Shown here one piece after another: positions 33,383 through 53,056 of a stretch of DNA of 64,000 bases (position 1 is the stretch's first letter; the number at the start of each line of letters is the position of its first letter). The stretch lies in the NCBI GenBank assembly GCA_025617745.1, contig CM046872.1:1622976-1686975 (forward strand). Reading direction: 5' to 3'. The position numbers were made by a program, and so were the translations under genes. Below the pieces are notes generated by a model. That model was not told the DNA's origin. It saw only the letters and a list, made by a program, of their open reading frames with translations, and ran no database searches. The stretch is from Heliocidaris erythrogramma. Taxonomy: Eukaryota; Echinodermata; Echinoidea; Camarodonta; Echinometridae.

Positions 33383-36300
33383 AGTGTAAGGAAATAACAT
33401 ATACAACATCTTTGGCAAATCTCGTGGAAATAAATACAAATGTGAAAGAAATAGCGAGAATAACGTTGCGTAGCTCAATCAAAGTTCCCCAGAGCTGTCC
33501 TCCCTTTTTGAAATTTTTGCAAAGGCTGAAAAAATGTCTCCGCCGGGAATCGAACCCGGGTCGTTGGCTCAGAACGCCAATGCCTTAACCACTAGACCAC
33601 GGAGACGGGTTAGTGGTTTCGGCGACACCAGATTCAATTGACCGACAGATTGACAAATCCTCAACCTTATTAATTAATTCCTTTGTCGGGGGCAGGTGAG
33701 TTTTGAACAAAGACAAGCCGCGTGCCTCAGCTGGATCCAAGCGAATGCTTTGAATACATGTATACATTAGAATAATTATTAACAAGTGTAAGGAAATAAC
33801 ATATACAACAGCTTTGGCAAATCTCGTGGAAATAAATACAAATGTGAAAGAAATTGCGAGAATAACGTTGCGTAGCTCAATCAAAGTTCCCCAGAGCTGT
33901 CCTCCCTTTTTGAAATTTTTGCAAAGGCTGAAAAAATGTCTCCGCCGGGAATCGAACCCGGGTCGTTGGCTCAGAACGCCAATGCCTTAACCACTAGACC
34001 ACGGAGACGGGTTAGTGGTTTCGGCGACACCAGATTCAATTGACCGACAGATTGACAAATCCTCAACCTTATTAATTAATTCCTTTGTCGGGGGCAGGTG
34101 AGGATTTGTCAATTTGTCGGTCAATTGAATCTGGTGTCGCCGAAACCACTAACCCGTCTCCGTGGTCTAGTGGTTAAGGCATTGGCGTTCTGAGCCAACG
34201 ACCCGGGTTCGATTCCCGGCGGAGACATTTTTTCAGCCTTTGAAAAATTTCAAAAAGGGAGGACAGCTCTGGGGAACTTTGATTGAGCTACGCAACGTTA
34301 TTCTCGCAATTTCTTTCACATATATATTTATATATAGTATATATACATGTATATATTAATAGACATATTATAAGCGCGTCCGCGAAAGCTGAACACTGTA
34401 CCAGGTATAACAGATTTTCAATTATGACTATCTTGATATCTTAAAGGTAAAAAAAAAAATCAGATAATTTTTAATGATAGTCCAACTGTAATTATAAATA
34501 TTGCCCCTATACACAGCAGTCATGAATTCAGAAAATTAATTCTAAATTTCGAGAAGTGTTACTGTATGCCTTAAAACTCCACAGCGAAGGACGGGACCCT
34601 CGCTTGATTTCAATCGCTCCTGGACTGATTACCTTCATGGATTTGGAGACCTACACGGAGATCATTGGCTGGGACTTACGAAGATGGCGCGGTTAATGAA
34701 GGGGAGATACAATATAACGGTACACTTTGAGGACGGTGAAGTCATTAACGCTACCTTTATGGCACTTCTACGTCCAGAACATGAGTACGTATAGCCATAA
34801 TTTTATATTTGGAGTATACTGCTTCTTGGTTTGGATCAGTAGTTTTCCACTATTTTCTAAAGTAGCAACTTTTCGCTATTGTGTGATAACTATCGATCTG
34901 GACGCGCACGCTTCGCTTGTTGTAGCATTGCATCATTCCTTCTTGATCGAACATCAAGGCAATGTTATCACTGTATCATCCAATTATACCTCAGTCACAC
35001 CGCCAAACCGACCCCACACCTACTCCAAAGTGACCGATTCTTGATCACTGGTAGCAATGCAATTTTGTGTTCGGTTTGTGTTCGGTTTGTTGTCGGTCTG
35101 GCGTCGGTCTTGCTGGTGTGACTGTAGTAATCTCACATGGAAAGTTGGTTCATCCTCTCATATGCATGTTTTGTTATTTTTGTTTTGTTTTGTTTCGTTC
35201 ATTGGTTCGTTGTTCGTTGATTTTTTCTTGCCTTTCAAAATGAAAATATCATGAGCTGTTATATCATTATGATACACAGTGGCGGATTTAGGGGGCCGTG
35301 CCCCCCCCCCCCCCATTGAAAGAAAAAGTAACCTTTTTCTTCTTTTTTTTTTTTTTTGGGGGGGGGGGGGTTTGTCGGAGAATTCTGGAGGCAAATTGGA
35401 TTTTTAAAATGTGATATAACCCTTTTTAGCTCACCTGAGCCTATGGCTCGAGTGAGCTATTGCGATGGAAATTTGTCCGTCGTCCGTCGTGCGTCGTGCG
35501 TCGTGCGTCGTCCGTTAACTTTTTACATTTTCATCTTCTTCTCCAAAACCCATGATCAGAATTCAACCAAACTTGGTAGGAATCATCCTTAGGGGTAGGG
35601 GACCCAAAGTTGCTAAAATGGTACATGTGGCCCGCAGGGGGGCCCAGGGGGAGGGCCCCCAATTGTAAAAGCTATGTAAATTTCAAACATCATCTTCTCC
35701 AGAACCAGGCATAGCTCAGACTTGGTATTGTGTATGGAGATACCTCTATAGATGAAGAATGAATGTTGTTCATGAAATTTCTCTGAGTGGCCCTATAGGG
35801 GCCCTGTGGGGGTAACATACTGAAGGGGGGGGGGGGCGCTGCCAGGCAAAATGTACATTCTGATCTTCTTCTCCAAAACACATGATCAGAATTCAACCAA
35901 ACTTGGTAGGAATCATCCTTAGGGGTAGGGGACCCAAAGTTGCTAAAATGGTACATGTGGCCCCCAGGGGGGCCCAGGGGGAAGGCCCCCAATTGTAAAA
36001 GCTATGTAAATTTCAAACATCTTCTTCTCCAGAACCAGGCATAGCTCATACTTGGTATTGTGTATGGAGATACCTCTATAGATGAAGAATGAATGTTGTT
36101 CATGAAATTTCTCTGAGTGGCCCTATAGGGGCCCTGTGGGGGTAACATACTGGAGGGGGGGCGCTGCCAGGCAAAATGTACATTCTGATCTTCTCCAAAA
36201 CACATGATCGGAATTCAACCAAACTTGGTAGGAGTCATCCTTAGGGGTAGGGGACCCAAAGTTGCTAAAATGGTACATGTGGCCCCCAGGGGGGCCCAGG

Positions 36301-39300
36301 GGGAGGGCCCCCAATTGTAAAAGCTATGTAAATTTCAAACATCTTCTTCTCCAGAACCAGGCATAGCTCAGACTTGGTATTTTGTATGGAGATACCTCTA
36401 TGTAAAGGATAACACACGAGTAACTGTCCGTTCGTGTGTGAGAATGGGCTGAGGGCGTAGCCCGAAGCTCATTCTCACCCACGAACGGACAGTTACGAGT
36501 TGTGTTATATGATTTAACACCCAGCTCTGACGTCTGTCTATTGTTCTTTCACTACATTATTTTCCACGAATGGAGTGATAACATGTGTTTATTAGTAACC
36601 ACATACTGTATTGTTGGAAATTCAAGCGTAACAGTGTTATGCACCACGACAACAATGATCACATTCCAAACACAGTACATTTGAATTTAATCACTGCTGC
36701 ATTATACACTTGACCAGCGATTAACAATAACACGCCATTCGTACAAAATAGTTAAATAATACAATCAAATGTGAATGGGTTGCATGCATCACGGATCAAC
36801 TGTTTCATTCATTCTCTCATTGGTCAGCGATCAGTTACGTTGTCAAAATTTGAATCAAGATGTTCAGCTACAGTGAAAGCGAACTGTTCCAAACGCAAAA
36901 TACATTCAGGGACTCTGAAATCGATGTTAGTTCAGATGCTATCGTTGAAGATATATTAAATATGGAGGAGTCAAAGCCATCAACATCAGGTTCCTTTCAA
37001 CATATACAACATGACGCTGAAATGAGACATAGGTATGTGTTACTTTCATTTATTTTTTTTATTATGTTCCATTTGATCCATTCGTAGAAAACAATGTTGG
37101 GCATGAAAAGGAGAGTACATATAGCTTAAAAAATTAATACTACAAATTGTAGTAAAATAATGTTTGCATGAAAATTAAGGCGACTGAGCCAATAACACAA
37201 ATGCTTATTAAGTTGTACCACATTAATGACTCCTTTATTAGACCATTTCACAAATGGATTCAAATTTATGGATATTTCTACCAGAAAACCTAGTGACAAG
37301 CAATGTCATTCAGCTGTTCAAAGTTATTGTGTTTCTTTTATTTCCATTGTGCATACATTAGTTGTTGCTATATCAGGCAAGCTTTGCCCAGACCTCGGGC
37401 AAGCCATGATCTGAATACATTTATGAAATTGTCTATTGGGTCGATAACCAAGATAAGATTAAAGTTTCAACTAACTTGAATTACGATTTGTCAGCCATCT
37501 ATGATTATAATAGTGTTAAAATTGTAGTATTAATTTTTTCAGCTATATGTACTCTCCTTTTCATGCCCAACATTGTTTTCTACGAATGGAGCGATGATAT
37601 TCATACTCGTACTACTCAGTATAACAATTGTTGTTAATGGCGTGTCATTAGCATCATTCCATTTGCGGAAAACAATGAATGTACTCTCCTTTTTATGCAC
37701 TACATTGTTTTGACGAATGGAGCGCTGATAATCATAACAAGCCGTTCGTACTACAACAATTGTTGCGAAAGGCGTGTTATTACCGATATCACTCCATTCG
37801 TTGAAAATAATGTCGTGAAAGTACAATAGACAGACGTCAGAGCTGGGTGTTAAAGATGAAGAATGAATGTTGTTCATGAAATTTCTCTGAGTGGCCCTAT
37901 AGGGGCCCTGTGGGGGTAACATACTGAAGGGGGGGGGGCGCTGCCAGGCAAAATGTACATTCTGATCTTCTTCTCCAAAACACATGATCGGAATTCAACC
38001 AAACTTGGTAGGAATCATCCTTAGGGGTAGGGGACCCAAAGTTGCTAAAATGGTACATGTGGCCCCCAGGGGGGCCCAGGGGGAAGGCCCCCAATTCTAA
38101 AAGCTATGTAAATTTCAAACATCTTCTTCTCCAGAACCAGGCATAGCTCATACTTGGTATTGTGTATGGAGATACCTCTATAGATGAAGAATGAATGTTG
38201 TTCATGAAATTTCTCTGAGTGGCCCTATAGGGGCCCTGTGGGGGTAACATACTGGAGGGGGGGGCGCTGCCAGGCAAAATGTACATTCTGATCTTCTTCT
38301 CCAAAACACATGATCGGAATTCAACCAAAGTTGGTAGGAATCATCCTTAGGGGTAGGGGACCCAAAGTTGCTAAAATGGTACATGTGGCCCCCAGGGGGG
38401 CCCAGGGGGAAGGCCCCCAATTGTAAAAGCTATGTAAATTTCAAACATCTTCTTCTCCAGAACCAGGCATAGCTCATACTTGGTATTGTGTATGGAGATA
38501 CCTCTATAGATGAAGAATGAATGTTGTTCATGAAATTTCTCTGAGTGGCCCTATAGGGGCCCTGTGGGGGTAACATACTGGAGGGGGGGGGGCGCTGCCA
38601 GGCAAAATGTACATTCTGATCTTCTCCAAAACACATGATCGGAATTCAACCAAACTTGGTAGGAATCATCCTCAGGGGTAGGGGATCCAAAGTTGCTAAA
38701 ATGGTACATGTGGCCCCCAAGGGGGCCCAGGGGGAGGGCCCCCAAGTGTAAAAGCTATGTAAATTTCAAACATCTTCTCCAGAACCAGGAATAGCTCAGA
38801 CTTGGTATTGTGTATGGAGATTTTTTCTGGGTGGCCCTATAGGGGGTCTGTGGGGGTAACATACTGGAGGGGGGGGGAGGTGGGGCAAGTTGTCCGCCAT
38901 CCATAAACTTTTTACATTTTCAGCTTCTCCAAAACCCATGATTGGAATTTAACCGAACTTGATAGGAAGCTCAGACTTGGTATTGTGTATAGAGATACCT
39001 CTATAGATGAAGAATGAAAGTTGTTCTTGTGCTAGAGAGAACATGCACCAGATGTGAATTGATCCACCTCAGGTGAGCGTCGTGCCCCCTGGGGCTCTTG
39101 TTTATGTTGCTTGTCAGATAATTCTGGAGGCACGAGATTTGTGTCCCCACCTTTTTTTTTAATCCTGGATCCGCCCCTGATGATACATGTCAGTAATTTC
39201 ACTTCCTTTTTAAGACATTCGGACCTGAATATGGGCTTCCTTTTCATTGACTCACACTGTATATAGCAATCAGATAAAATAAATCTAAATGACCTTCCAC

Positions 39301-39618
39301 TCTAGACTAATATTCCCTCATCTTTCTTGGTATAGTTTTTCAGGAAGTTTCTATCATTTCCGGAGCAGCCACAGAAACACTGAATGGAAACGACGCTTGC
39401 AACCGAAGAGTATTCCTGCTGTGTTCACCGCACCTGGAGAGGGTACGATAAACTCAACTTGTGCAAATGTGTGTGGAGGAGGGTGGTGGTACTGGATTAG
39501 TTGCATATGGAACATCAATGGCATACTTACTGCTCCTAGCAATAACACAGAATATGATTGTGGGTGGCGGGATAAAAGGGTTGTAAAGACTCTAATGATA
39601 ATGAGGGCAGAATTTTAA
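27285..39618 (+). CDS. Fibrinogen-related domain (FReD) gene, partial model
   Basis: Exons seen: 27285-27437, 28917-29038, 34585-34788, 39344-39618 (terminal, stop TAA). Exon 1 to 2 joins in phase (Pro-Ala-Pro-Thr) and exon 2 to 3 in phase 0. Exon 2 starts the fibrinogen C-terminal domain (TDCGAY, GGDEQFYVYC, GYVVLQ). Exon 3 continues it (DFNRSWTDYLHGFGDLHG, HWLGL). Exon 4 holds the C-terminal core (CANVCGGGWWYWISC, NINGIL, DCGWRDKR, VKTLMIMRAEF). The first visible exon encodes ~50 residues with two Cys and no domain I know. Exon 3 ends in phase 0 but exon 4 needs one preceding base, and about 10-15 residues of the domain are missing there, so a small exon of length 3n+1 is unfound or lost. 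FReD proteins are usually secreted lectin-like molecules; a signal-peptide exon would lie further 5' and is not seen. Confidence 0.8.
27798..28877. mobile_element. TTAA-flanked element, 1.08 kb
   Basis: TTAA at 27794-27797 and 28878-28881. The ends read AGGGAAGG and, in reverse complement, AGGAGAATTAAG. An internal inverted repeat is marked by ATGGGGGCTGCCATTTT (28146) and its reverse complement (28712), the same block found in the TTAA element at 49629. No coding sequence. It ends only ~40 bp before a fibrinogen-related exon. Confidence 0.65.
29547..29873. mobile_element. TTAA-flanked MITE, 327 bp
   Basis: TTAA at 29543-29546 and 29874-29877. Arms of about 35 bp are inverted copies: left CGGGAGTGGCAAGTCGTAAT, right ending GCGACTTGTCGCTCCCT. 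Non-coding. It lies in the fibrinogen-related gene's second intron. Confidence 0.75.
29957..33229. mobile_element. 3.3-kb foldback element with tandem-repeat arms
   Basis: The outer ends are inverted copies (GCAGCAATGGAAATACCCAC on the left; the right ends TTTCCATTGCTGC). Each arm (about 30000-30680 and 32450-33190) is an array of ~110-bp units built on GTCAACCCAGGGTAGATAAC and TTTGTGGCCATTTAGTC. The arms are in opposite orientation, and the orientation also flips inside each arm near its inner end. TA microsatellites border both outer ends. The centre is occupied by a Tc1/mariner-like element. No coding sequence of its own was found. Confidence 0.75.
30696..32353. mobile_element. Non-autonomous Tc1/mariner-like element with ~580-bp inverted repeats
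   Basis: Starts CAGTTAACAACAAAATTATT and ends with its reverse complement, flanked by TA on both sides, as expected of Tc1/mariner insertion. Inverted similarity extends from the ends to about 31280 and 31770, leaving a ~490-bp unpaired middle. The phrase TATTCATACCC recurs at the outer end and ~200 bp inside each arm. No transposase frame is present, so it must have been moved in trans. Confidence 0.8.
33226..33381. repeat. TA microsatellites flanking a short spacer
   Basis: (TA)n at about 33233-33257 and 33347-33380 lie on each side of ~90 bp of unique-looking sequence. Frames reading IYIYIY are artefacts. Confidence 0.9.
33536..33606 (-). tRNA. tRNA-Arg(UCU)-like gene, copy 1
   Basis: A 71-nt cloverleaf: acceptor GTCTCCG/CGGAGAC fully paired, D arm with GGTCTAGTGG A box, anticodon stem TTGGC/GCCAA with loop GTTCTGA (anticodon TCT), and T arm CCGGG-TTCGATT-CCCGG. 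A TTTTTT Pol III terminator follows directly. By anticodon it reads AGA, but the body resembles Glu-type tRNAs, so identity is uncertain. It lies in a duplicated repeat and may be a tRNA-derived element. Confidence 0.65.
33938..34008 (-). tRNA. tRNA-Arg(UCU)-like gene, copy 2
   Basis: Identical to copy 1 in all stems, the TCT anticodon and the T-run terminator. It lies 402 bp away in the same orientation, within the second repeat unit. Confidence 0.65.
34156..34226 (+). tRNA. tRNA-Arg(UCU)-like gene, copy 3, inverted
   Basis: The same 71-nt sequence on the + strand, head-to-head with copy 2 with 147 bp between their 5' ends. It is followed by ATTTTTT. It belongs to the inverted repeat unit. 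Confidence 0.65.
34988..35129. mobile_element. Short MITE with CAGTCACACC ends
   Basis: Inverted ends CAGTCACACC...GGTGTGACTG enclose ~120 bp rich in CGGT/ACCG words, with partial pairing along its length. The exact boundary and target duplication are unclear. Confidence 0.55.
36408..36512. repeat. Hairpin (near-perfect palindrome)
   Basis: Arms around ATAACACACGAGTAACTGTC and its inverse pair along ~45 bp, with core CTGAGGGCGTAGCCCGAAG. One of four such hairpins in the window (others at 45887, 49253 and 51419). Confidence 0.8.
36860..37032 (+). CDS. Possible first exon within the insertion
   Basis: ATG opens 57 codons (MFSYSESELF, then MEESKPSTSGSFQ) ending at a consensus donor ATAG|GTATGT. 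The composition is Ser/Glu-rich and protein-like. No later exon was found before the element ends, so it would be an orphan 5' exon of a transposon protein or a captured host exon. No domain recognised. Confidence 0.35.
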
Positions 39619-39654
39619 TAATTGAAGTAAGTTTTTACCAAAAAAGGGCAAATG

Positions 39655-40276
39655 CTCGCTTAAAGGTATTGTACTGATATCGAAACTGCATGATTTTCAA
39701 GTCAAGACGTATAATTATTATGTTTCGCTGTGATTCGATGTTTGTTTGACTATAGTAATGCTGCTTGGTATAGCAGTCTGGGCAATATTGACCTTAAAAA
39801 AGGGTTAAGAATAATAAAAAATAGGATTGTAAGATTTATTAATTAATTCATTAATTGCTCAGGCCAGAGAATACATGTCAGGGAAAAGCGACTTTGAATG
39901 AGCAGGTGTTCTCCGTTTTTAATTAATAAATAATTAGTTGTGTTGTATTTGTTATTATCCCGCTCTTCTTAAGATCACCTGGTTTGAAAAATCTTTAAAT
40001 TGTAGACACGGCAATAATATGTTGAATGTATTTGATCTTTTTCCTTCTAAATGTAAGAGAATTTGATATCAATATACTCCCTATTCACTGGCAGATTTTT
40101 AGTAGGGGCACAATCGGCCCCGCGGATCTACGGGGGGGGGGGGGGTGGGGGGGGGGGGGTTAACCCCCCCCCCCCCCCCCCCCTCTTTGGCTGCCAAGTA
40201 AAAATGTAAATTTTTAATGTGCATAGAAAAACGCCATCATATGTCCAGACCCACACAGTATGTTCCTATAGCATTG
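39655..40276. other. Downstream of the fibrinogen-related gene, nothing coding
   Basis: AT-rich 3' flank with an AATAAAAAATAGG possible polyadenylation region near 39812. Long G and C runs at 40130-40185 begin a repeat fragment. Confidence 0.45.
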
Positions 40277-40556
40277 TTATGCTTTTTATGGTCTCCATTG
40301 CGTTAGTAGATGCCAGGAAAACATCACTTACGGGGGTTCAAAATAGCAAAAAAATCGGTTCGCCGCTACGCGGCTTGTGGACGATGCTCCGCATTTTTTA
40401 TGCTTTTTATGGTCTCCACTGTGTTAGTAGATGCCAGGAAAACATCACTTACGGGGGTTCAAAATAGCAAAAAAATCGGCTCGCGGCTTGTGGACGATGG
40501 CCCGTAATTTTTATGCTTTTTATGGTCTCCATTGCGTTAGTAGATGCCAGGAAAAC
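40277..40556 (+). repeat. Minisatellite, left part (~115-122-bp units)
   Basis: Units beginning TTATGCTTTTTATGGTCTCC start at 40277, 40399 and 40511. Each contains ATCACTTACGGGGGTTCAAA and GGCTTGTGGACGATG. The third unit is cut by a LINE after GCCAGGAAAACAT. The array resumes at 44103. Confidence 0.85.
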
Positions 40557-43500
40557 ATTTAAGATTCAAGATTCATTTTATTTAACCATAATAAGAAAAT
40601 AACAATATAACGATAACAATAGTACAGTATACAATTTACAAAAGAAATTACAGGATATAAACATCAAATTATCATTATGGTAAGGACCAAAAGGAAAAAG
40701 CAATGCTTGTAATGAAATTGGCCCTGACAAATTACATAATAGGTATCAGTGATAAACAAAAATAAACAAAAAAGGATTTATACATACAAATTCACACTTA
40801 CTCACCCGCATGCATACACATACAACACACACACACCAGCAACCATACAACAAGCTAAACACGCACACCCACACACACAGATATAAAATGTGCCAATCCT
40901 GAAACAGATTCAAAATTAATAATACATGTATATACAATATAATACAATATAATATATGAAGGAAAATAATATGCATCAATGACCAGTAATAGACAAATTA
41001 TACATTTATTGCCTTTGACAGAGCTTTTTAAACAGAGATAATGTAGTACTTGATTTAATGGTTTCGTCTTATTGATTCCAGAGCTTAATGCCAACAAAAT
41101 AAAGAGAATTGAGTGAGATTGTCAATTTGACCTTTGGTAAGTGAAAATCTTATTTTTAACGGGTTGAATAAGAGTGAAGACTAGAGTTTTGGACAAACAT
41201 ATTGCAATATATGCTTGGAATACATGTATATCAAAGAATTTAATGAAACTAATTCAAAAATTGGTGAAATATTCAGTTTTTTAAAGAGGGGAATGCTGGT
41301 TGATTGAAAAGAAGATTTTGTAATAATTCGAACTGATTTTTTTTTGAAGAATGAACAATTTCTTTAAGTGAGTTTTGTAAGTATTTCCCCAAATATGATT
41401 ACAGTAATTTAAATGTGGAAGAACAAGAGTGTTATATATCATTTTCAAAACAGTACTGGGTACAATAAATTTAAATCTGGAAAGAACACCAACAGCCCTG
41501 GAAATAGATTTTGATATCACAGATACGTGGGTACTCCAGTCCACAATTCATTCAATGTAACGCCAAGAAATTTAACATTATTTACCTTACAAATTCCGTA
41601 TTCTGAACTCCGGTTTAACTTAAACTCCAGTCTAAGCTAAACCAGAGTCTAACTAAACCCGACTTAGACTGCATGTCGGGTTTAACTCCATTTCTGTTTC
41701 TGAAAGTCCAGTTTAGTTAAACTCGAGTCTAAGTCCAGTCTAAGTTAAACTGTGGTTTAGTTGCCATGGAGACGTAGTCTGCTGCTACTGCACATGCTCA
41801 GTAGAGCTCAATTTATATTCAAGAAGGCTGAACTTTGCTTATTCCTTTCATTTTTAAGATGTTTAATCAAGAAATGTCACGAAATACTTTATACACAAAT
41901 TAAAGGCATACCATTTGGCACTTCATATGTCATGATTAGCCTACTGGAGTTTTCTGGATCGTAAATGAAGACTATTTAAGGTTATGTTGGTCGGTTTATG
42001 TAGTCCTAGGGAAGATACTGAACGCAGGCACTACGCCTCTGTATTCAGCTCCTTCTTAGCTATATATACCATTTCAAAATGGCTGGATCACTAGCGTAGG
42101 CTTCGGGGGGGGGGGGGGGGCAAATACTGCTAGGGGCAAACCCGGCGAGAAACCCTCATTTTTGGGCTTGTCGGATATGGAGGAAAACATCTGATAACCT
42201 CTGCCCCCACTGAGCGGTGGTGAAAAACAGTCATGGCAGACTCTAGATCTAAAAGTTATATCTATATTATCTAACAGTTAGGCCTGCAATGTCCATCATG
42301 TGGGAGCAGATCAAGGATTTTGTATTTTGAAAAAGGGGCTCAAGCAATTGACACACAACTAAAACATAAAAAGCATCAGATTTGGGGGGTTGATTTTTTT
42401 ATTTTTTTTTTTTTTTTTGGGGGGGGGGAGTTTGATGACTTAGTTACGTCTGACATTTAAAGCAAATAAAAAAAAATAAAATGTGTGTGTGGGGGGGGAT
42501 GTCTGGACTTCGTGATCCCCCAAATGCCCCTGATTGGTGAGGAAAACGCAACACCGTCACTTTGCAAATTTGACTAGATTCAAAGCAAAAGGAAAGGACC
42601 CTGGCTATAGACCTCTTTATACTAGCCTGACAGATTATATATCTATTATGTTATGAGGCACAGGGGGCATTTTGAAAACAAAAACAAAAACAAAAACAAA
42701 CCAAACGAAAAATAAGATATACCGTTTCTAGAACTAGAGGTAAAATATGACAGTTAGAGCTTGGCCTATACAGTACTTTTAGACCGAAAACAAACCTGTT
42801 CGTTTCGTTTCATTGAAAAGTCAATACACTTTACTGGGTACCATATGAAGGGCACATTTTCGGAGATAATAGTTTGCAATTTGAATGCAAGTAAAAAAGA
42901 CTATAGCTAGATCTACTTTGACATCTATAGATCTAGGCCTATGTCATAGATGTATAATAAAGAAGGGCACTGTGTTACTTTAGAACCTGACGTTAGCTGC
43001 TACTAGCTGCTGGCCTACAAAAATAATCTGGTCACAATGTATTGCCATTGGTAAGTTCCTGGACTAACTTTGTTATTCATGTGTCTCAATTTTCCAAGAC
43101 GTTAACGTTAGACATAATGTAAGTTGTAAAGACTAAACTTCTAAACTACGTTTGTTACTAGTCAAGACTATGTCTACTGTACTATATATATTCTAAAAGT
43201 TAGACCCTATTTTACTAACGAAGGTTAGATATTAGCTATAACGTTAGAGGTCGAGGAGAGTTGAGTTTCAACGTTAAATCTGGGTGACTCAGCTGTCAAA
43301 TTTTGAAATTGCAGTCGGAATTGCAATAATCTCTGGAGCTGAGCTCTTAATGATATATTTGTTTTGTAGTTTCGTTGAATGTTTTTTTTTTCTGTAGCTG
43401 TAACTTCGGAACCCAACTTCCCAACAACAGTCAGCTCCGACCTACAATACATGTAGCCTGGCTCAGCTAGCTAGCTAGCTCAGCACTGCGTGGGATGGGA

Positions 43501-44102
43501 TGAGAGGGTATCGGTCGCGTCGGCTGGGCCGGCCGGCCCGGCTCGGGTCAGGGTGTAAAGAGCTATGCTTGCTCGCGCGCGAGCGCGAAAGATTGTTGCA
43601 AAGTCAGTTCTGCGATAATGACAGCGCTTGCCATGAATACTGCCGTTAACGTTAGATCCAACTTCGATCCGAGATCCAGCTAAAAAGAAAAAGAAAAAGA
43701 AGATTTTCCTCTTTACGGAGGTAAGTTTACCTTTCTCTTAGGTGGTGCCAGCAGACTTTAAAACCTTTGTTAATATCACTCTTCGCCTCAGTTGCAAACA
43801 TTATCCTGCGGTGGCCGTGCGTGAAGACAAGTTAAACCGGGCTTAAACTACCCCTAGCTGCAGCCTAACTTTCTGTACAAAATTAAACTGGAGTTTAAGT
43901 TAAACCGGAGTTCAGAATACGGGCCAAATTTTGTTTTATCAAGATTCAAGGATAATTTATTAACCCTGAACCAATCTAAAACATTAAAAATTTCCTCATT
44001 TGCTAATGATATGAGTGTATGTAAATATTTGTTACTCAATGTAATTACTGTATCATCAGCAAACAAGGTTAATAATTTTTGAAGAATGAACAATCTCATT
44101 CT
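40557..44102 (-). mobile_element. CR1/L2-like LINE fragment, interrupted by a Harbinger derivative
   Basis: On the - strand, 44095-43926 encodes the reverse transcriptase YADD region (LLTLFADDTVITLSNKY, NKLSLNLDKTKF). After the Harbinger insert, 41590-41281 encodes the thumb/C-terminal part (VNNVKFLGVTLN, LVLPHLNYCNHIWGNTYKTH). The 3' tail ends near 40557 with TGAATCTTGAATCTTAA. It is 5'-truncated at ~44100, has at least one frameshift near 41540, and lacks ~25 residues at the Harbinger junction. It has inserted into the minisatellite. Confidence 0.8.
41593..43925 (-). mobile_element. Internally deleted Harbinger copy, 2.3 kb, inverted relative to the full copy
   Basis: The left end matches the reverse complement of the right end of the 8584-18915 element, through the TIR sub-repeats to the GTAGTCTGCT block. 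The right end matches the reverse complement of its left end, through TAAACTACCCCTAGCTGCAG. Neither transposon gene is present; the interior is unrelated AT-rich DNA with G/C runs. The left terminus lacks the outer three bases of the TIR. AAATT stands outside both ends. Confidence 0.85.
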
Positions 44103-44310
44103 TCAAAATCACTTACGGGGGTTCAAAATAGCATAAAAAATCAGCTCGCCGCTTCGCGGTTTGTGGACGATGCTCCGCATTTTTATGCTTTTTATGGTCT
44201 CCATTGCGTTAGTAGATGACAGGAAAACATCACTTACGGGGGTTCAAAATAGCCACAAAAAATTGGCTCGCCGCTACGCGGCTTGTGGACGATGCTCTGC
44301 ATCGTCGTTG
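44103..44310 (+). repeat. Minisatellite, right part
   Basis: Two more units of the array at 40277, starting ATCACTTACGGGGGTTCAAA at 44107 and 44229. With the LINE removed, left and right parts join within a unit (AAAACAT / AAAATCACTT). Confidence 0.8.
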
Positions 44311-44319
44311 GGTCAAACC

Positions 44320-44408
44320 CCCCCCCCCCCCTTGGCAAAAAGCTAGATCCGCCCCTTGGCCCGTGCCCCCCCCCCCTTGGCAAAAAGCTAGATCCGCCCC
44401 TGGGCCCG

Positions 44409-44439
<31 letters not shown>

Positions 44440-44594
44440 TTGAAGCCCAAGTGGCATACTTGAAGTACACTCTCAAAATGTGCGCCCCTTATCCAAATTT
44501 TCGACCCAAATGGCACCTTAAATACGTGCTACTTTTTAACAAGAATCTGAATTGTGGCCCCGTTTTTTATACGAAATCCTGGATGCGCCCCTGT
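44320..44594. repeat. Poly-C rich hAT-type repeat fragments
   Basis: Long C runs (up to ~32 bp near 44407) separate copies of AGCTAGATCCGCCCCT and end CCTGGATGCGCCCCTG, a degenerate hAT-type terminus like that at 39165-39179. Part of the sequence (CCCAAGTGGCATACTTGAAG) also occurs near 21460. Confidence 0.55.
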
Positions 44595-44699
44595 TTCTAT
44601 TAGCCCCCTACCGAAAAGTGATCTTTGTATATGTCTGACTGTCATTATACTGTATGACTCTCAGATACTGTCATGGCTTTGAACTAGAAAGTGGGTTTT

Positions 44700-45805
44700 C
44701 ACGGAGCACAAATATAAACGACTTCGTAATAAATAATCTATAAAAAATAATTCTAACAAAACGTGGAAACTTATAAACAGTGTTTTGGGAATGTCGAAAA
44801 AATGGCAAAGACCAACCTTCGGAGAGGTTTTCTCACAATGTGTCAAGATAATGGAACCGTGAACCATTCTTGCGCAGTATGTGCGAATGTCGTGTGTAGC
44901 GTTGCCGAACCTATGCCATGGCCAGCCCACATACACCGGGAACACGCGAAACATATAAAAAAGAAAAATCGATATTATAGGGCATTCTGAAACTCTCGGA
45001 CTGAAGTTAATCATGACAAATATATACGACTTCGTAATAAAGTTTACTTCCAATTCTTCATCGAGAGAAGAAGCATTATTACCTTAAAAAGTTTGAATCT
45101 ATAATAAAATAATTCTAACAAAACGTGGAAATTTATAAACAATGTTTTGGGAAAACAAAACAGATACATTTGATAAAGAAAATTACTTTGTATGCAATGG
45201 TTCTCATATTAGAGATCCTTGTGAAATTGCGAAAAAAAATTAACAAATATTTTGTTAATATTGATCAGATATTAGTATTAATTTTCAAAGCTGGAAATTT
45301 TAATTCGTTTCACTTGTACATGAATAAGCCACTCTCACATACTTTGTGTTTAAAGCAGTCGCAAAGGAGGAAATTATTGGTAAATCGCTTTAACCTGTTA
45401 AAAGTATTGGATTTGATGACATTGTTGTAAAACACATTTTACCCTTTATTGTCGGACCCTTTTTTACACATTTTAACTCTTCTTTTACAACCGGTTGTGT
45501 ACCCTCGAAAATGGAAATAGCCAAAGTTGTTCCCGTTTTTAAAAAGGATAATCCAAATCTATTTACCAACTACTGCCCATTATCAATTTTCCCATGCTTT
45601 AAAAAAAATTTGAGAAATTAGTTTTTAATAGACTGTATAGTTTTTTTTACTGCAACATAATGTATCATATGGTAGTCAATACGCTTTCCGCGAAAATTAC
45701 TCTACAGACATGGCAGTTATTGAAATTCACCATCGAATAAAGTAAAAAGCTCAACGCAATTAAAGAATTCATATGTGTTTCCGTGGACTTCCAAGAATGT
45801 TCTGT
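44700..45805 (+). pseudogene. Degenerate CR1/L2-like LINE, N-terminal reverse transcriptase part
   Basis: Across broken frames, + strand sequence encodes TWKFINNVLGK (45127), then KMEIAKVVPVFKKDNPNLF, TNYCPLSIFPC and a QYAFRENYSTDMAV-like block, ending near VSVDFQ at motif A. The order matches the fingers region of non-LTR reverse transcriptases. There are many stops and frameshifts. The TWKFINN region occurs twice (44749 and 45110), separated by ~330 bp of duplicated or inserted sequence. It stops abruptly at ~45805. Confidence 0.65.
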
Positions 45806-45886
45806 AATCTGATTGGTTCAAATCGTGTCACATGACATTCAGTGGACTGCACTGTAGCATCCATTTGCATTGGAGTGCAGACAACG

Positions 45887-45950
45887 TACTATACCAAATG
45901 CACTATACCTGCGCTCGCCGGAGTGCAGGTATAATGCATTTGGTATCGTG
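45887..45950. repeat. Hairpin with GCTCGCCGGAGT core
   Basis: Arms ATACCAAATGCACTATACCT and its inverse (45891-45912 with 45925-45946) pair almost completely. The surrounding 100 bp is also rich in TGCA/GTGCA words. A CRE-like TGACGTCA follows at 45969. Confidence 0.8.
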
Positions 45951-46087
45951 CATTTTTTGCACTCAGAATGACGTCATTCACGTCAACAATGCAAGTGGCA
46001 ATGACCGGGCGTGTCAAAGTTTGCGCGAAGTGTACGCGCAATGGTGTTCGGATAACCAATCAAATTCAGGAAAGCCCTGCGGGTACT

Positions 46088-46475
46088 GCTTTTGCTAAAC
46101 AGTCGGGTAACGTCGCGTCGCGTTGGTAGAAATTTTCGAACATTTTTCAGGAAGGTGTCTTCAAGGGGACAAATTGAAAAAGAGTCCATCTCAGTATGAT
46201 TTTTCCCGTTTTCAGGCTAAAAACGACAAACAAGGGAATAAAGAAAACAATAGAAGGATAATGCAAAGAAAAACATGAACTATAAAGAGAGAATAGAAGG
46301 GTAGGAAGGATGGAAGAAAATATGATGAAAGGAAACAAAGAATACAACAAAAGGAAAGTTGGAAAGTAAAAATGAGTGGATAAAAACAAAGAAAAACATA
46401 AAGAAAGATAGAGACATAAATGATAGAAGGATAAAGATATTAAGAGTAACATAAGGAAAGATAGAAGAGAAGATG
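46088..46475 (+). repeat. Left arm of a ~390-bp inverted repeat
   Basis: Reads GCTTTTGCTAAACAGTCGGG into purine-rich AAGGAAAG/AGAAGG sequence. Its reverse complement is 48379-48758, nearly identical apart from small indels. Purine-rich sequence continues inward to ~46960 without a partner. Long one-sided frames in this area are compositional. Confidence 0.85.
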
Positions 46476-48378
46476 ATAATTTGAATAAAGGAATAACATA
46501 ACGAAAGAAAAGATGAAAGGAAAACAAAATGATAGGATAAAAGCAAAGAATGTTTTAAGGAAAGTAAATAAAGATGGGAAGCAGAAAATGATTTTAAAAA
46601 GAATAATATAAAAAAAAAGAGAAATGATAGGAAAAAAAAAGTTTAACTTATATAAAGAAAGACAGAGAGAAATGATAGAAGGATAAAGATTAACGTGAGG
46701 AAGGTGGGGGAGAAAATGATAACAGGAAACAAAGAATATCATAACGAGAGGAAGGATGGAAAGATAATTGATAGATAAAAGCAAGAAATGACAAAGCGAG
46801 AGATAGAGAGAAAAATAAATATAAACATGAAGAAAGGTGGAAGAGAAGATGATAAAAGGGAACAAAGAATAACAAAGTGAAGATGGAAAGCAATAAAAAA
46901 AGAGGATAAAAAGAATAAATATAAACAGTAACATTATGAAAGATGGAAAACAAAATTTAATTTCATGGTGGGGCGGGGGTTATAAATATTAATTAACAAA
47001 TAAACATGGGTAACTTCGGGGTTTATCATAAAGAGTATCACAAAGGATTATGAAAAAAAACATGGTTGTCATGGTTTCTATATGCAGGCCAGTAGCCAGG
47101 GTTTCTAAAGGGGAAGGTGGACCTTTTTGTAAGGTCCTTGCTTGGGGTCCGGGTGCATGCCCCCCCCCCCGGAAAATGATAAAATATAGATGCTTACTGC
47201 TGTAATTTAATGACTCCCGAGGGGAAATTTAGGGGTTGTGAATGATGGTGAAGTGAGTTGTAGTGTTGCCAATATTTTTTTTTCATGAAAAAGCAGATAT
47301 CATCCCAAGAAGGTGGGGGTGGGGGTCGTCCGACCCCTCCGACCCCCTGGCTAGGGGCCTGATATGCAAATCGGAAAAATGTTCATTGTGACGGACGGAC
47401 GAGATAGAAATTGATTGCTTGACTTCCTCGTCCCCTTTTGTAATTACAATCCAAATAAATTAAACTTGTCAAATATTTTCTTATTAAATGTTAGTTACAT
47501 AAACAGGGTTTACAATCATCTGTCAAGTTTATGTCGAGCCCCTGATTTTGTAGCGAATGCTGAAGAGGGTGTAACGAATTTTTGCTAAACATGGCAATTT
47601 TTAACAACACCCATGCTGAAAATTGTATGGCCCAAATAAGTAGACATATCAGAATTTTCTAACAAATCATTTTACCAAGATACGAACAAGTTAGGTAAAG
47701 CCTCTCAACATGGGATATCACAAGTGTCACGGACGGACAAAATGCTCACTCTTACCTGATCAATCTCTTCTTTCTCTCTTTTTCCCCATATCCTTCTGTG
47801 CACTGAAGCTCCATTTCTCGCTTTCTCTTTCTTCCCCCTTGCTCTTGTTATTCGATCATCTTCTTTGTCTTCGTTGTTTAACCTGATCTACTAGTTCTTA
47901 ATCTCTACATTTTCTCTCTATCTCTATCTCGTTCTATATCTCTCTCGTTCTATCTCTCTCATATCTCTCTAATATATGTAAACCGCAAAAGGACAATATA
48001 GCAATGAAAAACAAAATAATTACCCTGTAAAAAAAAAATGGAACACACACACACACACACCCACACGCTACCCCCCCCCCCCCCAAAAAAAAAAGAGTTG
48101 AAGTTAGGACTTGCTCTAGAATTATTCATAGTTTAATATTTCAAAACCTTTTTTTTTAGAAAACAGAAAAAACACATTACTAAATCACTATTTTCGGAAT
48201 GATTTTTATTTTACTATTCATTACGTGATAAACATTGGATGCACATTTTATTTGTATAACGTAAAAACTTAATGAGTATCCAGTAATAGGCCTACAGTAA
48301 GTGCTAAAAATGTGAAAAGAATCTCACAGCTAGCTCGCTCGAGTCTAGCCCGGCACGCGCGCCAGCTTGCCGCAATTG

Positions 48379-48758
48379 CATCTTCTCTTCTATCTTTCCT
48401 TATGTTACTCTTAATATCTTTATCCTTCTATCATTTATGTCTCTATCTTTCTTTATGTTTTTTTATCCACTTATTTTTACTTTCCAACTTTCCTTTTGTT
48501 GTATTCTTTGTTTCCTTTCATCATATTTTCTTCCATCCTTCCTACCCTTCTATTCTCTCTTTATAGTTCATGTTTTTCTTTGCATTATCCTTCTATTGTT
48601 TTCTTTATTCCCTTGTTTGTCGTTTTTAGCCTGAAAACGGGGAAAATCATACTGAGATGGACTCTTTTTCAATTTGTCCCCTTGAAGACACCTTCCTGAA
48701 AAATGTTCGAAAATTTCTACCAACGCGACGCGACGTTACCCGACTGTTTAGCAAAAGC
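48379..48758 (-). repeat. Right arm of the ~390-bp inverted repeat
   Basis: Pyrimidine-rich partner of 46088-46475, ending GTTTAGCAAAAGC. About 1.9 kb separates the arms. Confidence 0.85.
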
Positions 48759-48767
48759 CGCGGGTAC

Positions 48768-49215
48768 TAAGCTAGACCGAAAATTCTGTCTCTCGTTCGT
48801 AGCTCTTCACTTAGAGACAGAAACGCTCCATTCACTCGCCTGTGCAAACCGAATCCCATTGACTCACACACTATACCGTTTGAATACGACTGGAAGATTT
48901 TCAAACGGAGAAAACCTTGGACCCTGAATTACCTGAAAAAGGAGCATTAAAAGGAATAACAGTCAAATTGGTAAGTTGAACATGTTCGTTTAAGTATACA
49001 GCCTAGGCCTAATCTATTTAATTTACACAAATATTGTTAAAATGTGAATAATACGATTTACAAAAACGACATGCCTACTGTCAAGCGGTTGACAGTGAGT
49101 TTGCACAGGCGAGTGAATGGAGCGTTTCTGTCTCTAAGTGAATGGCCGACCCTATCCAAATAAGAGGCTAACGAACGAGAGACAGAAAATTTCGGTCTAG
49201 TACTAAGCTAGCTAA
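48768..49215. repeat. Foldback with ~80-bp arms
   Basis: Left arm CTAGACCGAAAATTCTGTCT through CTCCATTCACTCGCCTGTGC; the right arm is its reverse complement (49095-49205), with an extra ~35 bp. The loop contains GATTTTCAAACGGAG and a possible donor ATTG|GTAAGT, but no credible coding exon. Confidence 0.75.
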
Positions 49216-49252
49216 GCGCTTACGTTACGTCCTAGTTTCTTCATCTCATTAT

Positions 49253-49419
49253 ACAGATGATGCACAGATATGAGTGGGTCGGTAGAATTGTTTGCATAAG
49301 GTAAATTTGAGCATGGTTTAAACACACGAGGCGCAGCCGAGTGTGTTTTAGACCAGGCCAAATTTACCGAATGCAAACAATTCTACCGACTCACGAAATA
49401 AATCTGTGCATCATCTGTT
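49253..49419. repeat. Long hairpin with GAGGCGCAGCCGAG core
   Basis: About 75-bp arms: ACAGATGATGCACAGATATG on the left and its inverse on the right, continuing inward through AGAATTGTTTGCAT and TTTAAACACAC to the core. Several mismatches, but clearly one palindrome. Confidence 0.85.
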
Positions 49420-49628
49420 TTATAGAATGGGCGTACAGGATAAATGGCATTATTACTGGTATCATGCAACAATTTACCGGCCAAATTTTACCGGACGCAT
49501 GATAAGAGAAAAAAACCTTATACAAGGCACTGCTTCATGCTTGCACTGGTAAATCATTTCCATGCATCATAAATAGATTTTAGAAATTTAATGACTTCCA
49601 TAGAGAACTGAAAATCTGGCTAATTTAA

Positions 49629-50395
49629 AGGAGAATGAAACTCAACGAACATTAGCTGATAATCAAGTGGAAAATTGGTAGCCTATTCGAAATATCTTGA
49701 AAATACTCCTATTTGATTACTTAATAAGGAGAACAATCTCTCTAAATTTTGCAGATTCCTTGCCAGATATTATCCCATGGGGGCTGCCATTTTGAAAAAC
49801 TGTGATGTCATATGAGTACATGTCCATTTACCTGTATATAATGGATATGATGTTGCATATTGAATAGCTATTGTACAACTAAAGCCACAATGCAAAATGG
49901 CAGCCATCTTGGTACCCCCATTGTCTCGCACAGGTGATATCTAAGAGCAGTTGTAGGTCTTTGTCACTTTTTTGTAGAATTGACAAACCTTTGTCTGACC
50001 AAACAACTTGTGCATGTTAAATCCTGCTTAACAAAAGAAACAGCTGAACCAAATATCTTGATACAAATAGTATCTTCATTTGAATGTACATGACTACAAA
50101 AATGCTTTACATGTATTATGGGAAAATCCAGTGTCATGCATTCCACAGGTGATCATGAGTGTTATTATAGCTAGTGTATAGGTCAGTGGGTATCTCATAA
50201 ATATAACTGCTCTGACATTACTTTGTAAAGAAAATGGCAGCCCCCATGGGATAATGTCTAACAAGGAAACTGCAACTTTTTGAGACACTGTTATCTTTCT
50301 TCAATAATCAAACATGAGTAATTTCAAGATATTTGTAAAAGGCTGACAATTATCTACATGATTGTAGGTTAATGTTTGTTACCTTTCATTCCCCT
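49629..50395. mobile_element. TTAA-flanked MITE, 767 bp, ~180-bp TIRs
   Basis: TTAA at 49625-49628 and 50396-50399. The ends read AGGAGAATGAAAC and, in reverse complement, AGGGGAATGAAAG; inverted similarity extends to ATTATCCCATGGGGGCTGCC (49767) and its partner (50235). It shares the GGGGGCTGCCATTTT block with the element at 27798. No coding sequence. Confidence 0.8.
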
Positions 50396-51418
50396 TTAAG
50401 GTTAAATTTCAGAATTTCATTTTATTTCAGTGTTAGAGTCTTGACCCTAAGGCTAAGCTAACTACTGTCATGACTGTCAACTTTTTTTATTTTAGAATCT
50501 GTCAGTGTCAACAACAAGCCCAAGTTAGATATAATCTAGTCTATTTACATTAAAGCAAGTAATTTAAAGAATTAATGCAAAGAGAACTTCTAGTCTTGCA
50601 TCAACAAATTTTAAGTCTGGTCATCCCATAATCCAGGCCAGCCCAGACCAGTGTATGCTGCGCTGTAGACTGTAGTGAATCACCGTACCGTATGCACTGC
50701 ACAGTGCAGTGCAGCGTACGGTACTACACAGTAACCCTCTCCTTGAAGTTTCAGTTTCACACTGCACTAATTTTCATTTAATCGCCTTTTCAGTTTGCTT
50801 GTTTTTAAACAGGTAGACCTATAATCGGATTTTATTGGGCTTACCATCAGAATCCGAAGTCAACTATCATTAACATCTGAATTTTGTCTCAAATCTTGCA
50901 ATTCTCCGTCATTAAAAAGTCGTATATCGCGGCTCTCAGCTCAGACTCTCGCACTCGCTAAAATAAATATCGATAGCATGTTTACAGTGGCTATCGTCAG
51001 TGATCGTAATAATTATTGATATCGAACGTGCAGGCCAGTAAAATTAAAGGCACAGCTCTTGACCAATGAGATTGCAGGGATTCTGAAACCCATTCTATAA
51101 TTTATTTTATTAAGCGCATTCACAGACTAGATTGTGAGACAGACTGTATCGCTAGCTAGCTACATGTAGCTGTGAATTCATTATTGAATTCATTAGCCTA
51201 GTTGTTAATTTTTTAGTGTTTTTTCTGTTCTCGTGTTCCTTTTTTTTGGGGGGGATATAGTTTTGATTTATATACAATGATGGATGACGCGTGAGCGTGA
51301 AGGTAGGAATACAATTCAATTATTTATTCATTGGCTTTGGGGGAAGCTCAGAACGACAGTAGGAGGGGGAAGTTGTATAAAACAAACAATGCACGTTTGC
51401 TTGTGCATTTGTGGGCCG

Positions 51419-51552
51419 AAATAATGCACTCTGTGCTCGACTCGCCACCTGGATATACCGCACTCGGTCCTGCGGACCTCGGTGCGGTATATCCAGGGGC
51501 TCTTCTCGCACATCGTGCATTATTTTGCCCTGAATGCACTCGCTACCGTGCA
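51419..51552. repeat. Hairpin with CTCGGTCCTGCGGACCTCGG core
   Basis: Arms AATAATGCACTCTGTGCTCG and CCTGGATATACCGCAC pair with their inverses on the other side of the core. It lies immediately upstream of a LINE fragment. Confidence 0.85.
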
Positions 51553-51559
51553 TTATCTG

Positions 51560-52487
51560 TATATTATCTCTTAAAATAGATTCAACCCCTTTGAAATTTT
51601 ATGATTCAATAAAATTTCTAGGTGTCATTTTAAACACTAACTTAAGTTGGAATGATCACATTAGTTCAGTCTGTGTCAAGATATCACGTCTTATTGGAAT
51701 TTTAAATCGATTGAAATATGCATTACCTAGTTATATAATGTTTACTCTTTATAATGCTTATATTTTGTCTTATTTGTCTTATTGTTAATCTGGGGGAACA
51801 CGTATTCTTTCCATTTACAAAAACTAATTATACTACAAAAGAAGGCACTACGTATCTGTATGAAAGCGGACTATAACGCATCAACCTCTCAGTTGTTTAA
51901 ATCATTCCGTACGCTTAAACTGCCAGACATTACAAATATTCCAATTTCTTCGATTATGCAACGCTACCACTCAAAATTTTATCACCATATTTAATCAACA
52001 TGTTCTCAATTAATTCTAACATTCACAGCCGCTATACTAGATCGTTTAATCAATTTCACAGGTGGACCTTCTCAAATGATAGATCAAGACATACAATTCG
52101 ACACACAGACCCCACTTTATGGAATGATTTGGACTTGGGCATATTTGAAAGACAATATAAACAGTTTCTATTAATCAATTATTGATTAATTAGAAACGAC
52201 CAGTTTTTCTTGTTTGTTTTGTTGTTTTTCTTAAAGTGTTTATGTTTTAAGTTTTAAGTTTAATCTATATTTTCATAACTCGGTACTTGCCACATTCTTG
52301 CTGTAATTGCTCTTGGCTTTTCCAGTACATGGCCAATTTCCATTCATTTTCTTCAACTCATCATATTGCCATTACGTACGCTGAACAACACTATTTTTAT
52401 CATAATTACTTTGTTATTTTTTTTTCTTCATGTGTTTTACTTGTTTTAGTTGTTTGTTCGTTTGTTTGTTTTCGTTTGTATCATTTG
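51560..52487 (+). pseudogene. CR1/L2-like LINE, C-terminal reverse transcriptase and 3' UTR (outer LINE)
   Basis: Encodes FYDSIKFLGVILNTNLSWND, LPSYIMFTLYNAYILSYLSYC, then after a one-base deletion at ~51787 LIWGNTYSFHLQKLIILQKK and further C-terminal residues. A T-rich 3' UTR follows. Its last bases resume at 55850 (AATGAATCGGAAATAAATAC, then GAATTGAATTGAA) after the insertion of a second LINE. It is 5'-truncated at the hairpin. Confidence 0.75.
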
Positions 52488-52493
52488 TAATGA

Positions 52494-53056
52494 TTTTTAA
52501 AGATGTCCCAGATGACCTTGAAGTTTCATGGATTAAGGTTCGCCCAACACACCTGCCAAGAAGCGTTTCCTGTATGTATTGCGCTGTTGTCTATTATCCC
52601 CAACCAGATCAGGCCTTGGAGAGAAAGCTCATCGAACACATTCTCTCCAATGTGGATGTTCTTCTGACTCGTAGCCCTGAGGCTGGTATCGTCATACTTG
52701 GAGATTTTAACCAGCTCAACACTGATCCGCTTCTTGCTGACCAGCGTTTCCGACAGATGGTGGAGGAGCCCACAAGGGGCAACAATATTTTAGATAAAAT
52801 AATAACTAATTTAGTAGATCACTACGAGAAAGGCCAAATCTGTTCTCCTATAGGTTTTTCTGATCATAACTGTGTTATTTTAAAACCAAAAATTAACCAA
52901 CATAAAGCTAACTCGTCTCGAATTCGTACATGTCGTCCTATGCCTGATAGTGCTATAAGAGAATTTGGTAGATGGGTTAGTTCACATGATTGGTCTCAAC
53001 TTTATGGATTTTCAAATGTTAACGAACAATACGAACTATTTGTAAAAAGATTTTAA
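52494..53056 (+). pseudogene. LINE ORF2, apurinic endonuclease C-terminal half
   Basis: Encodes MIFKDVPDDLEVSWIKV, then IVILGDFNQL and GFSDHNCVIL. GDFN and SDH are signatures of the APE-type endonuclease that nicks target DNA. The N-terminal half is lost by truncation. The frame closes at TAA 53054-53056; a one-base length change in the A run at ~53042-53046 would continue it into the next part. Confidence 0.85.

Follow-up and report, generated by a model that had tools for sequence, protein, structure and literature searches.

How do hairpins with unrelated stems come to share the same tip? The question arises from a 64,000-nucleotide stretch of the Heliocidaris erythrogramma genome (GenBank assembly GCA_025617745.1, contig CM046872.1, positions 1,622,976 to 1,686,975), referred to here as the window, where a preliminary description had noted four hairpins at 36408, 45887, 49253 and 51419, with different arms and a similar GC-rich centre. 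We consider it likely that the hairpins with this core are the 3' ends of several non-autonomous families of rolling-circle transposons with Helitron2/Helentron architecture, in which the tip is read and the stem merely pairs.

A structural core on changing stems

All four hairpins are present in the window. Two repeat finders both detected those at 36408, 45887 and 49253. The hairpin at 51419, which is plain in the sequence and its fold, has a single extra base beside the loop; it escaped one finder and was outside the 25 longest of the other. The hairpins, with the families to which we assign them, are:

36399..36508, minus strand: 3'-terminal hairpin of family F (36408); the element body lies to its right and the G·A strand is plus; loop GTA at 36457-36459, apical G·A/G·A at 36451-36452 and 36464-36465, outer G·A/G·A at 36418-36419 and 36497-36498
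45872..45964, plus strand: 5'-subterminal hairpin of family G (45887), without the core
49250..49419, minus strand: 3'-terminal hairpin of family C (49253)
51381..51563, plus strand: 3'-terminal hairpin of family G (51419); on the minus strand, loop GCA at 51471-51473, apical G·A modules at 51464-51465 and 51479-51480, and more G·A-type modules outward

A shared GC core is found in the hairpins at 36408, 49253 and 51419 and not in that at 45887, whose apex (CTC-GCCG-GAG) is Watson-Crick paired up to a tetraloop. One strand of the core reads CTCGGCTNCGCCTCG and the opposite strand CGAGGCGNAGCCGAG, that is C, GA, GGC, GNA, GCC, GA, G. Taken as plain sequence it is too weak within the window, with three matches at up to three mismatches against 0.64 expected and one of the three inside a hairpin, and we replaced this by a structural reading. 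The core then becomes clear: a GNA triloop with a C-G closing pair, a stem of 3-5 bp, and a 2 × 2 internal loop with GA opposite GA. The centre at 36408 is GGGCT-GA-GGGC-GTA-GCCC-GA-AGCTC on the plus strand. At 49253 the plus strand reads CAC-GA-GGC-GCA-GCC-GA-GTG, with the exact core CTCGGCTGCGCCTCG at 49327-49341 on the minus strand (CGAGGCGCAGCCGAG on the plus strand), and at 51419 the minus strand reads GCACC-GA-GGTCC-GCA-GGACC-GA-GTGC, with one extra C. A UNCG-type loop on the TC strand was ruled out by the sequence, as the triloop is closed by C-G and is not C(UNCG)G.

We searched 1.06 Gb of the genome in 26 contigs, using the reversed pattern as control. The exact core had 901 matches (433 and 468 by strand) and its control none, a strong enrichment. 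With the loop left free (CGAGGCNNNGCCGAG) there were 993 matches against 40, and GNA accounted for 901 of the 993 loops, compared with 4 of the 64 possible triplets; all four middle bases recurred among the 100 matches listed. A second stem, CGAGTCNNNGACGAG (GTC/GAC), gave 516 matches against 55, with GNA (mostly GAA) in 87 of the 100 matches listed. The GAA-rich matches are probably one family. Since the GTC/GAC locus that we read (L172) has a short stem only, matches of this pattern may not belong to such elements. Stem variants in which pairing is kept comprise GGC/GCC, GTC/GAC, GGCC/GGCC, GGGC/GCCC and GGTCC/GGACC. Seven hairpins were found in 20 stretches of 10 kb evenly spaced on contig C1, none with the core, and the finder used can miss core hairpins, as it did at 51419. 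A scan of viral contigs for the core matched at least 120 stretches, from which we conclude nothing.

When the stem was left free (CGAGN{1,4}CGNAGN{1,4}CGAG), 4967 matches were obtained and 1793 with the reversed control. Among 100 matches listed, 32 were fully paired at the free positions and 38 were paired on both sides of an inner mismatch, the latter mainly a CGAG-rich repeat, CGAGCGAGCGNAGCGAGCGAG. This is a common 21-base motif in which a GNA loop is surrounded by 2-bp stems that alternate with GA/GA; CGAG/CGAG occurs in 17 of the 100 stem-free matches listed, with many variants besides. We set it aside as another repeat, and the two copies read (L175 and L176) have no extended arms. By our reading, it inflates the reversed control of the stem-free pattern.

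To sort the core loci, we took the first 30 of the 901, which are all from contig C1, and aligned them in one orientation; this resulted in families A, A', B, C, C2, D and E. Two pairs of these, A/A' and C/C2, are sisters of about 80% identity. The core is conserved while the stems drift in a compensatory manner: in C/C2, 19 of 71 stem pairs vary and 12 of these are compensatory, and in A/A', 22 of 76 vary and 11 are compensatory, against 0-3 pairs when the partners were slid as a control. The G·A-type mismatches persist despite these changes.

The mismatches also extend beyond the apex. Comparing ten core hairpins (L174 and nine family representatives) with 18 control hairpins, non-apical 2 × 2 loops were RA/RA in 10 of 14 cases, versus 2 of 32 that were RA/RA or TY/TY in the controls (Fisher, 1.3 × 10−5), and GA/GA in 5 of 14 versus 1 of 32 (p 0.007). 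The four remaining core loops all lie at least 96 columns from the loop and are probably outside the hairpins. Measured from the loop, modules occur at 26-34 bp and, less cleanly, at 51-58 bp, and the families concerned have unrelated stems. The first of these positions beyond the apex holds a clean 2 × 2 module in C, C2, A, F, G, D and E and an odd-shaped one (CGA/GAA) in A'. The next holds an asymmetric loop in C, C2, A' and E, and the hairpins of F and D end before it. Where CAA replaces CGA, this could be CpG decay. Both the conserved loop on changing stems and the repeated selection on the core that had been suggested earlier are thus supported by the enrichment, by a loop that is variable at its middle base and constant at the G and A on either side, and by the partly compensatory stems.

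Anatomy of the elements

The core-bearing hairpin elements have Helitron2/Helentron architecture, as seen in their anatomy. Similarity between copies ends at the hairpin's outer end and continues on its other side in A, A', B, C, C2 and E. The hairpin is 3'-terminal in A, A', C, C2, F and G, and was judged so from the limit of similarity in B and E. Where both ends were measured, in eight copies from A, A' and C2, the element is 465-1349 bp long, excluding the length of one row (L028) that covers two neighbouring copies. The elements start with TTATATGACACC (A), TTATACAACACC (A') or TTATAGAATGGG (C and C2) and end with TTTGTATA or nearly so, giving the termini TTATA...GTATA. An asymmetric terminal inverted repeat (ATIR) lies at the 5' terminus, with its inverse just inside the 3' hairpin, in families A, A', C and G, the families that this evidence covers; B, D, E and F are known from one end. 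The corresponding features of the window are:

45787..51563, plus strand: family G element, split by a nested copy of family C and probably by a further insert; its conserved 5' start (ACTTCC) is at 45787 and its 3' end (CTGTATA) at 51557-51563
51368..51380, plus strand: 3' ATIR of family G, GGAAGTTGTATAA, the inverse of the family 5' end TTATACAACTTCC
49250..51100, minus strand: non-autonomous element of family C, 1.85 kb long and with both ends present, inserted within the family G element; on the minus strand, 5' ATIR TTATAGAATGGG at 51089-51100 and 3' end CTGTATA at 49250-49256
49420..49431, minus strand: 3' ATIR of family C, the inverse of 51089-51100, just inside the hairpin
36505..36521, minus strand: putative 3' ATIR of family F, TTATATGATTTAACACC on the plus strand, just inside the hairpin

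A single family, G, accounts for both 45887, its 5' hairpin, and 51419, its 3' hairpin. Blocks around the two were searched separately, with 40 places scored in each search. For 25 of the scored 3' blocks, a 5' block lies on the same strand and no more than 12 kb upstream, and there are no opposite-strand pairs. Fifteen of the 25 pairs are spaced by 492-563 bp and two by more than 6 kb, besides the window's own at 5.5 kb, where the distance is due to insertions including the family C element. A head-to-tail junction (L178) gives the 5' end of family G and agrees with the prediction from the 3' ATIR. The family end begins with TTATACA, 7 nt that the window's copy lacks. The 5' hairpin begins about 85-92 bp inside the element and excludes the ATIR. 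Judged by eye, the family G element contains one sequence twice in inverted orientation, at ~46085-46300 and ~48590-48780, which is probably a further insertion, and a reverse transcriptase frame seems broken by the family G element at ~45787.

For family F, the best 40 of 166 first-look candidates, the window's own copy included, are 96-100% identical, and these 40 scored copies place the family boundary at about 36399-36402. Its 5' end was sought as an inverse copy of TTATATGATTTAACACC at up to three mismatches, and none was found within the window. Flanks beyond the family ends are unrelated between copies. At one place (L013/L014), a family C2 hairpin has its apex region tandemly repeated, resulting in two cores 154 bp apart.

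Insertions and junctions carry the marks of rolling-circle transposition. A 1286-bp family A' element (L001) lies inside a reverse transcriptase whose joined flanks form one open frame, and Pfam RVT_1 matches residues 2-78 of the 99, spanning the junction at about residue 50. Nothing was therefore duplicated or lost on insertion, and a target duplication is absent from the one insertion whose empty site could be read. Three families yielded exact head-to-tail junctions (GTATA|TTATA): one in A (L017), three genome-wide in C/C2, of which one was read, and the one in G. A TA target duplication was rejected, as the 5' flank ends in TA in only some of the rows listed.

Helentron-type proteins are encoded in the genome, with 103 matches to PF14214 in open frames of up to 4199 aa; the one frame read carries PIF1 and Exo_endo_phos domains. 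The nearest gene for such a protein (RepHel) was 70 kb away for 58 cores on contig C1, 136 kb for 40 family F places, 180 kb for 40 places of the 45787 type and 547 kb for 40 family C 5' ends. As the hairpins cannot be linked to RepHel by position, their Helitron2/Helentron membership rests on the end anatomy, the lack of duplication and the junctions. On contig C4 (56402096-56420265), four Helitron_like_N domains are spaced by 5.8-5.9 kb on the same strand. The stretch between two of them (L171) has a frame for a helicase/endonuclease and, in degenerate form, a minisatellite (unit like AGATCAAGGAATAGATATCATGGCAAGTG); a hairpin was looked for in this one inter-gene stretch and was not found.

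A proposed reading of the tip and competing explanations

How Helitron-like transposons recognise their 3' ends, and how overshoot carries off flanking host DNA, is poorly understood. Tandem G·A adopts sheared pairing in a Y-GA-R context. DNA mini-hairpins with a GNA loop and at least two G-C pairs are described as exceptionally stable and nuclease resistant (PMC4686876). In Helraiser, the 3' hairpin stops transposition, a swapped stem leaves about 90% of activity and a loop change is as bad as deletion (PMC4778049), which suggests that the tip, and not the stem sequence, is read. By analogy, the terminal hairpin would be a stop or processing signal in rolling-circle transposition. The transposase or the fork would recognise a GNA mini-hairpin backed by tandem G·A, and the stem would only have to pair, so that families would keep the core while their stem sequences drift.

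The core also has a fixed strand polarity. The element body lies on the same side in all oriented families (A, A', B, C, C2, E, F and G), so that, with the hairpin taken as the 3' end, the G·A strand is the bottom one. Nine of ten core hairpins have computed DNA energies in favour of the G·A strand. As it is the bottom strand in every oriented family, the fold that matters is probably on the template strand. Only the top strand is cut and moved in Helraiser (PMC5876387), and together with the bottom-strand polarity this suggests a roadblock on the template strand. A hyperstable hairpin there might pause the helicase or polymerase at the 3' end, which is the weakest and most speculative step. 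Tentatively, we propose a modular DNA-structure code at rolling-circle ends that may consist of a C-GNA-G mini-hairpin and tandem sheared G·A at distances from the loop of ~3-5, 26-34 and 51-58 bp, all carried by the bottom strand and read as a folded single strand independently of the stem. Such modules could make the strands of a palindrome fold unequally and thereby give the terminator its direction.

Several observations weigh against the rolling-circle explanation as a whole. Helraiser cuts and moves its top strand, but here it is the bottom strand that carries the stable fold. The polarity covers the oriented families, and family D and L174 could not be oriented; the difference in DNA energy is 0.5-4.9 kcal/mol, and L026 is reversed. 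Because A/A' and C/C2 are sisters, there are fewer independent lineages than families. Loops other than GNA make up 92 of the 993 CGAGGCNNNGCCGAG matches and 13 of the 100 CGAGTCNNNGACGAG matches listed. Varying stem pairs that are not compensated on both sides number 7 of 19 in C/C2 and 11 of 22 in A/A'. Family B has no G·A module past the apical one, and the outermost module is a clean 2 × 2 loop only in A and G. The nearest RepHel gene was at least 70 kb away for all 178 places examined, namely the 58 cores on contig C1 and the 40 scored places of each of the other three sets; this sample would miss lower-scoring and longer copies. The ends are TTATA...GTATA and do not show the Helitron1 features (5'-TC, CTRR-3' and a hairpin ~10 nt from the 3' end). 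The evidence on target duplication comes from one insertion, and in all 10 rows listed the element is preceded by A or T, with a variable base after it and an A|T target at L001.

Long hairpin arms, AT-rich insertion sites and the shared ancestry of the sister families would also be expected of ordinary miniature inverted-repeat transposable elements (MITEs) that belong to a DDE transposon and have long inverted repeats, where the core was inherited from one ancestor and kept as a duplex binding site. We regard this as very unlikely. The hairpin occupies one end of a longer element and the inverted repeat of the other end lies inside it, duplication is absent at the readable insertion, head-to-tail junctions are exact, and stems change compensatorily while the mismatch modules stay. 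A DDE-type MITE, with inverted repeats at both ends and a fixed-length duplication, was rejected on the asymmetry of the repeats and on that one readable site. Distinct MITE families had been named as an outcome that would undo the earlier interpretation; the families are indeed distinct, but of Helitron2/Helentron type. Alternatively, the fold may be selected in RNA, with the G·A strand transcribed into a structural or small-RNA-generating hairpin, or with G·A modules conferring resistance to Dicer or ADAR. Tandem sheared G·A is common in RNA, and computed RNA energies favour the G·A strand in eight of ten core hairpins, by up to 10 kcal/mol. Against this, C-G-closed GNA triloops are a speciality of DNA and RNA prefers GNRA tetraloops, no Rfam family reached threshold at the window's hairpins, and a place at a transposon terminus suits a cis DNA signal. 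This makes an RNA role unlikely.

The preliminary description had also raised the possibility of a mobile core that generates palindromes at its insertion site, and snap-back self-templating around such a core would build them from local unique DNA. A core common to families with different stems fits this idea, but dispersed copies have near-identical stems and unrelated flanks, and copying of this kind would erase the G·A/G·A mismatches, which persist. Because the stems are family sequences repeated at unrelated sites, as in family F, none of the arms was templated by neighbouring unique DNA, and we consider snap-back extremely improbable.

Known systems share some of these features and differ in others. 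Helitron2 (Bao and Jurka 2013, PMC3627910) likewise has short ATIRs, at the 5' terminus and immediately upstream of the 3' hairpin, hairpins towards both ends (here in family G) and a 5' T. Its 3' ATIR is 20-30 bp from the end, whereas the hairpins here take up ~100-180 nt, its 5' hairpin includes the ATIR that the family G hairpin excludes, and the parts of that account used here do not mention a GNA/tandem-G·A core. Helentron, DINE-1 and HINE elements (Thomas et al. 2014, PMC4067079) are similar in being non-autonomous, with sub-terminal inverted repeats, a 3' palindrome and no target duplication. They insert at T-rich sites, and the elements here start with TTATA after an A or T in the rows listed. 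The present genome carries RepHel-endonuclease proteins; the mite HINE palindrome is only 5-10 bp, and the partner is not linked here. Fusarium FoHeli1/2 (PMC5148889), also of Helitron2 type, have 5' ends with AGCC-GAA-GGCT and AGTCC-GAA-GGACT, which we read as C-GNA-G triloops, but these are fungal and short, and they occupy the top strand of the 5' end. The hairpin in the right terminal sequence (RTS) of Helraiser/Helibat (PMC4778049, PMC5876387) terminates transposition, with a loop that matters and an exchangeable stem, yet is a 19-bp palindrome with an ATT loop, a CTAG end and an A/T target. The d(GCGNAGC) mini-hairpins (PMC4686876, citing Hirao and Yoshizawa) have the same loop and C-G closing pair; they were studied in vitro, and the portion of that source used here mentions no link to transposon ends. 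No report tying GNA loops, tandem G·A or mini-hairpins to Helitrons was apparent in the excerpted open-licence PMC literature. New here are the very long 3' hairpins, the GNA/tandem-G·A core and the fixed strand polarity. As a natural set with varied stems and a kept tip and mismatch modules, these hairpins separate what is read from what is scaffold. If the polarity matters, it would tell which strand is folded as transposition stops.

Other repeats and genes

Some matches and neighbours lie outside these families. A locus at contig C1:5878450-5878790 (L173) was rejected as a core element, being within a 100-bp tandem repeat and without long arms; it has GCCGC-NNN-GCGGC mini-hairpins with loops GAA, GTA and ATA. 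Four GTC/GAC-type cores on one strand of contig C2 (52418520-52429962), spaced by 3.6-4.1 kb, are likely a tandem array. In the window, three tRNA matches (Rfam RF00005, 63.6 bits each) lie at 33535-34259, two on the minus strand and one on the plus strand, and two of the three sit in the large inverted-repeat arms 33905-34065/34099-34259 (96%). Open frames of the type found in non-LTR (long terminal repeat) retrotransposons occupy 52406-54923 and 60513-61268, and 53046-54923 matches Pfam RVT_1.

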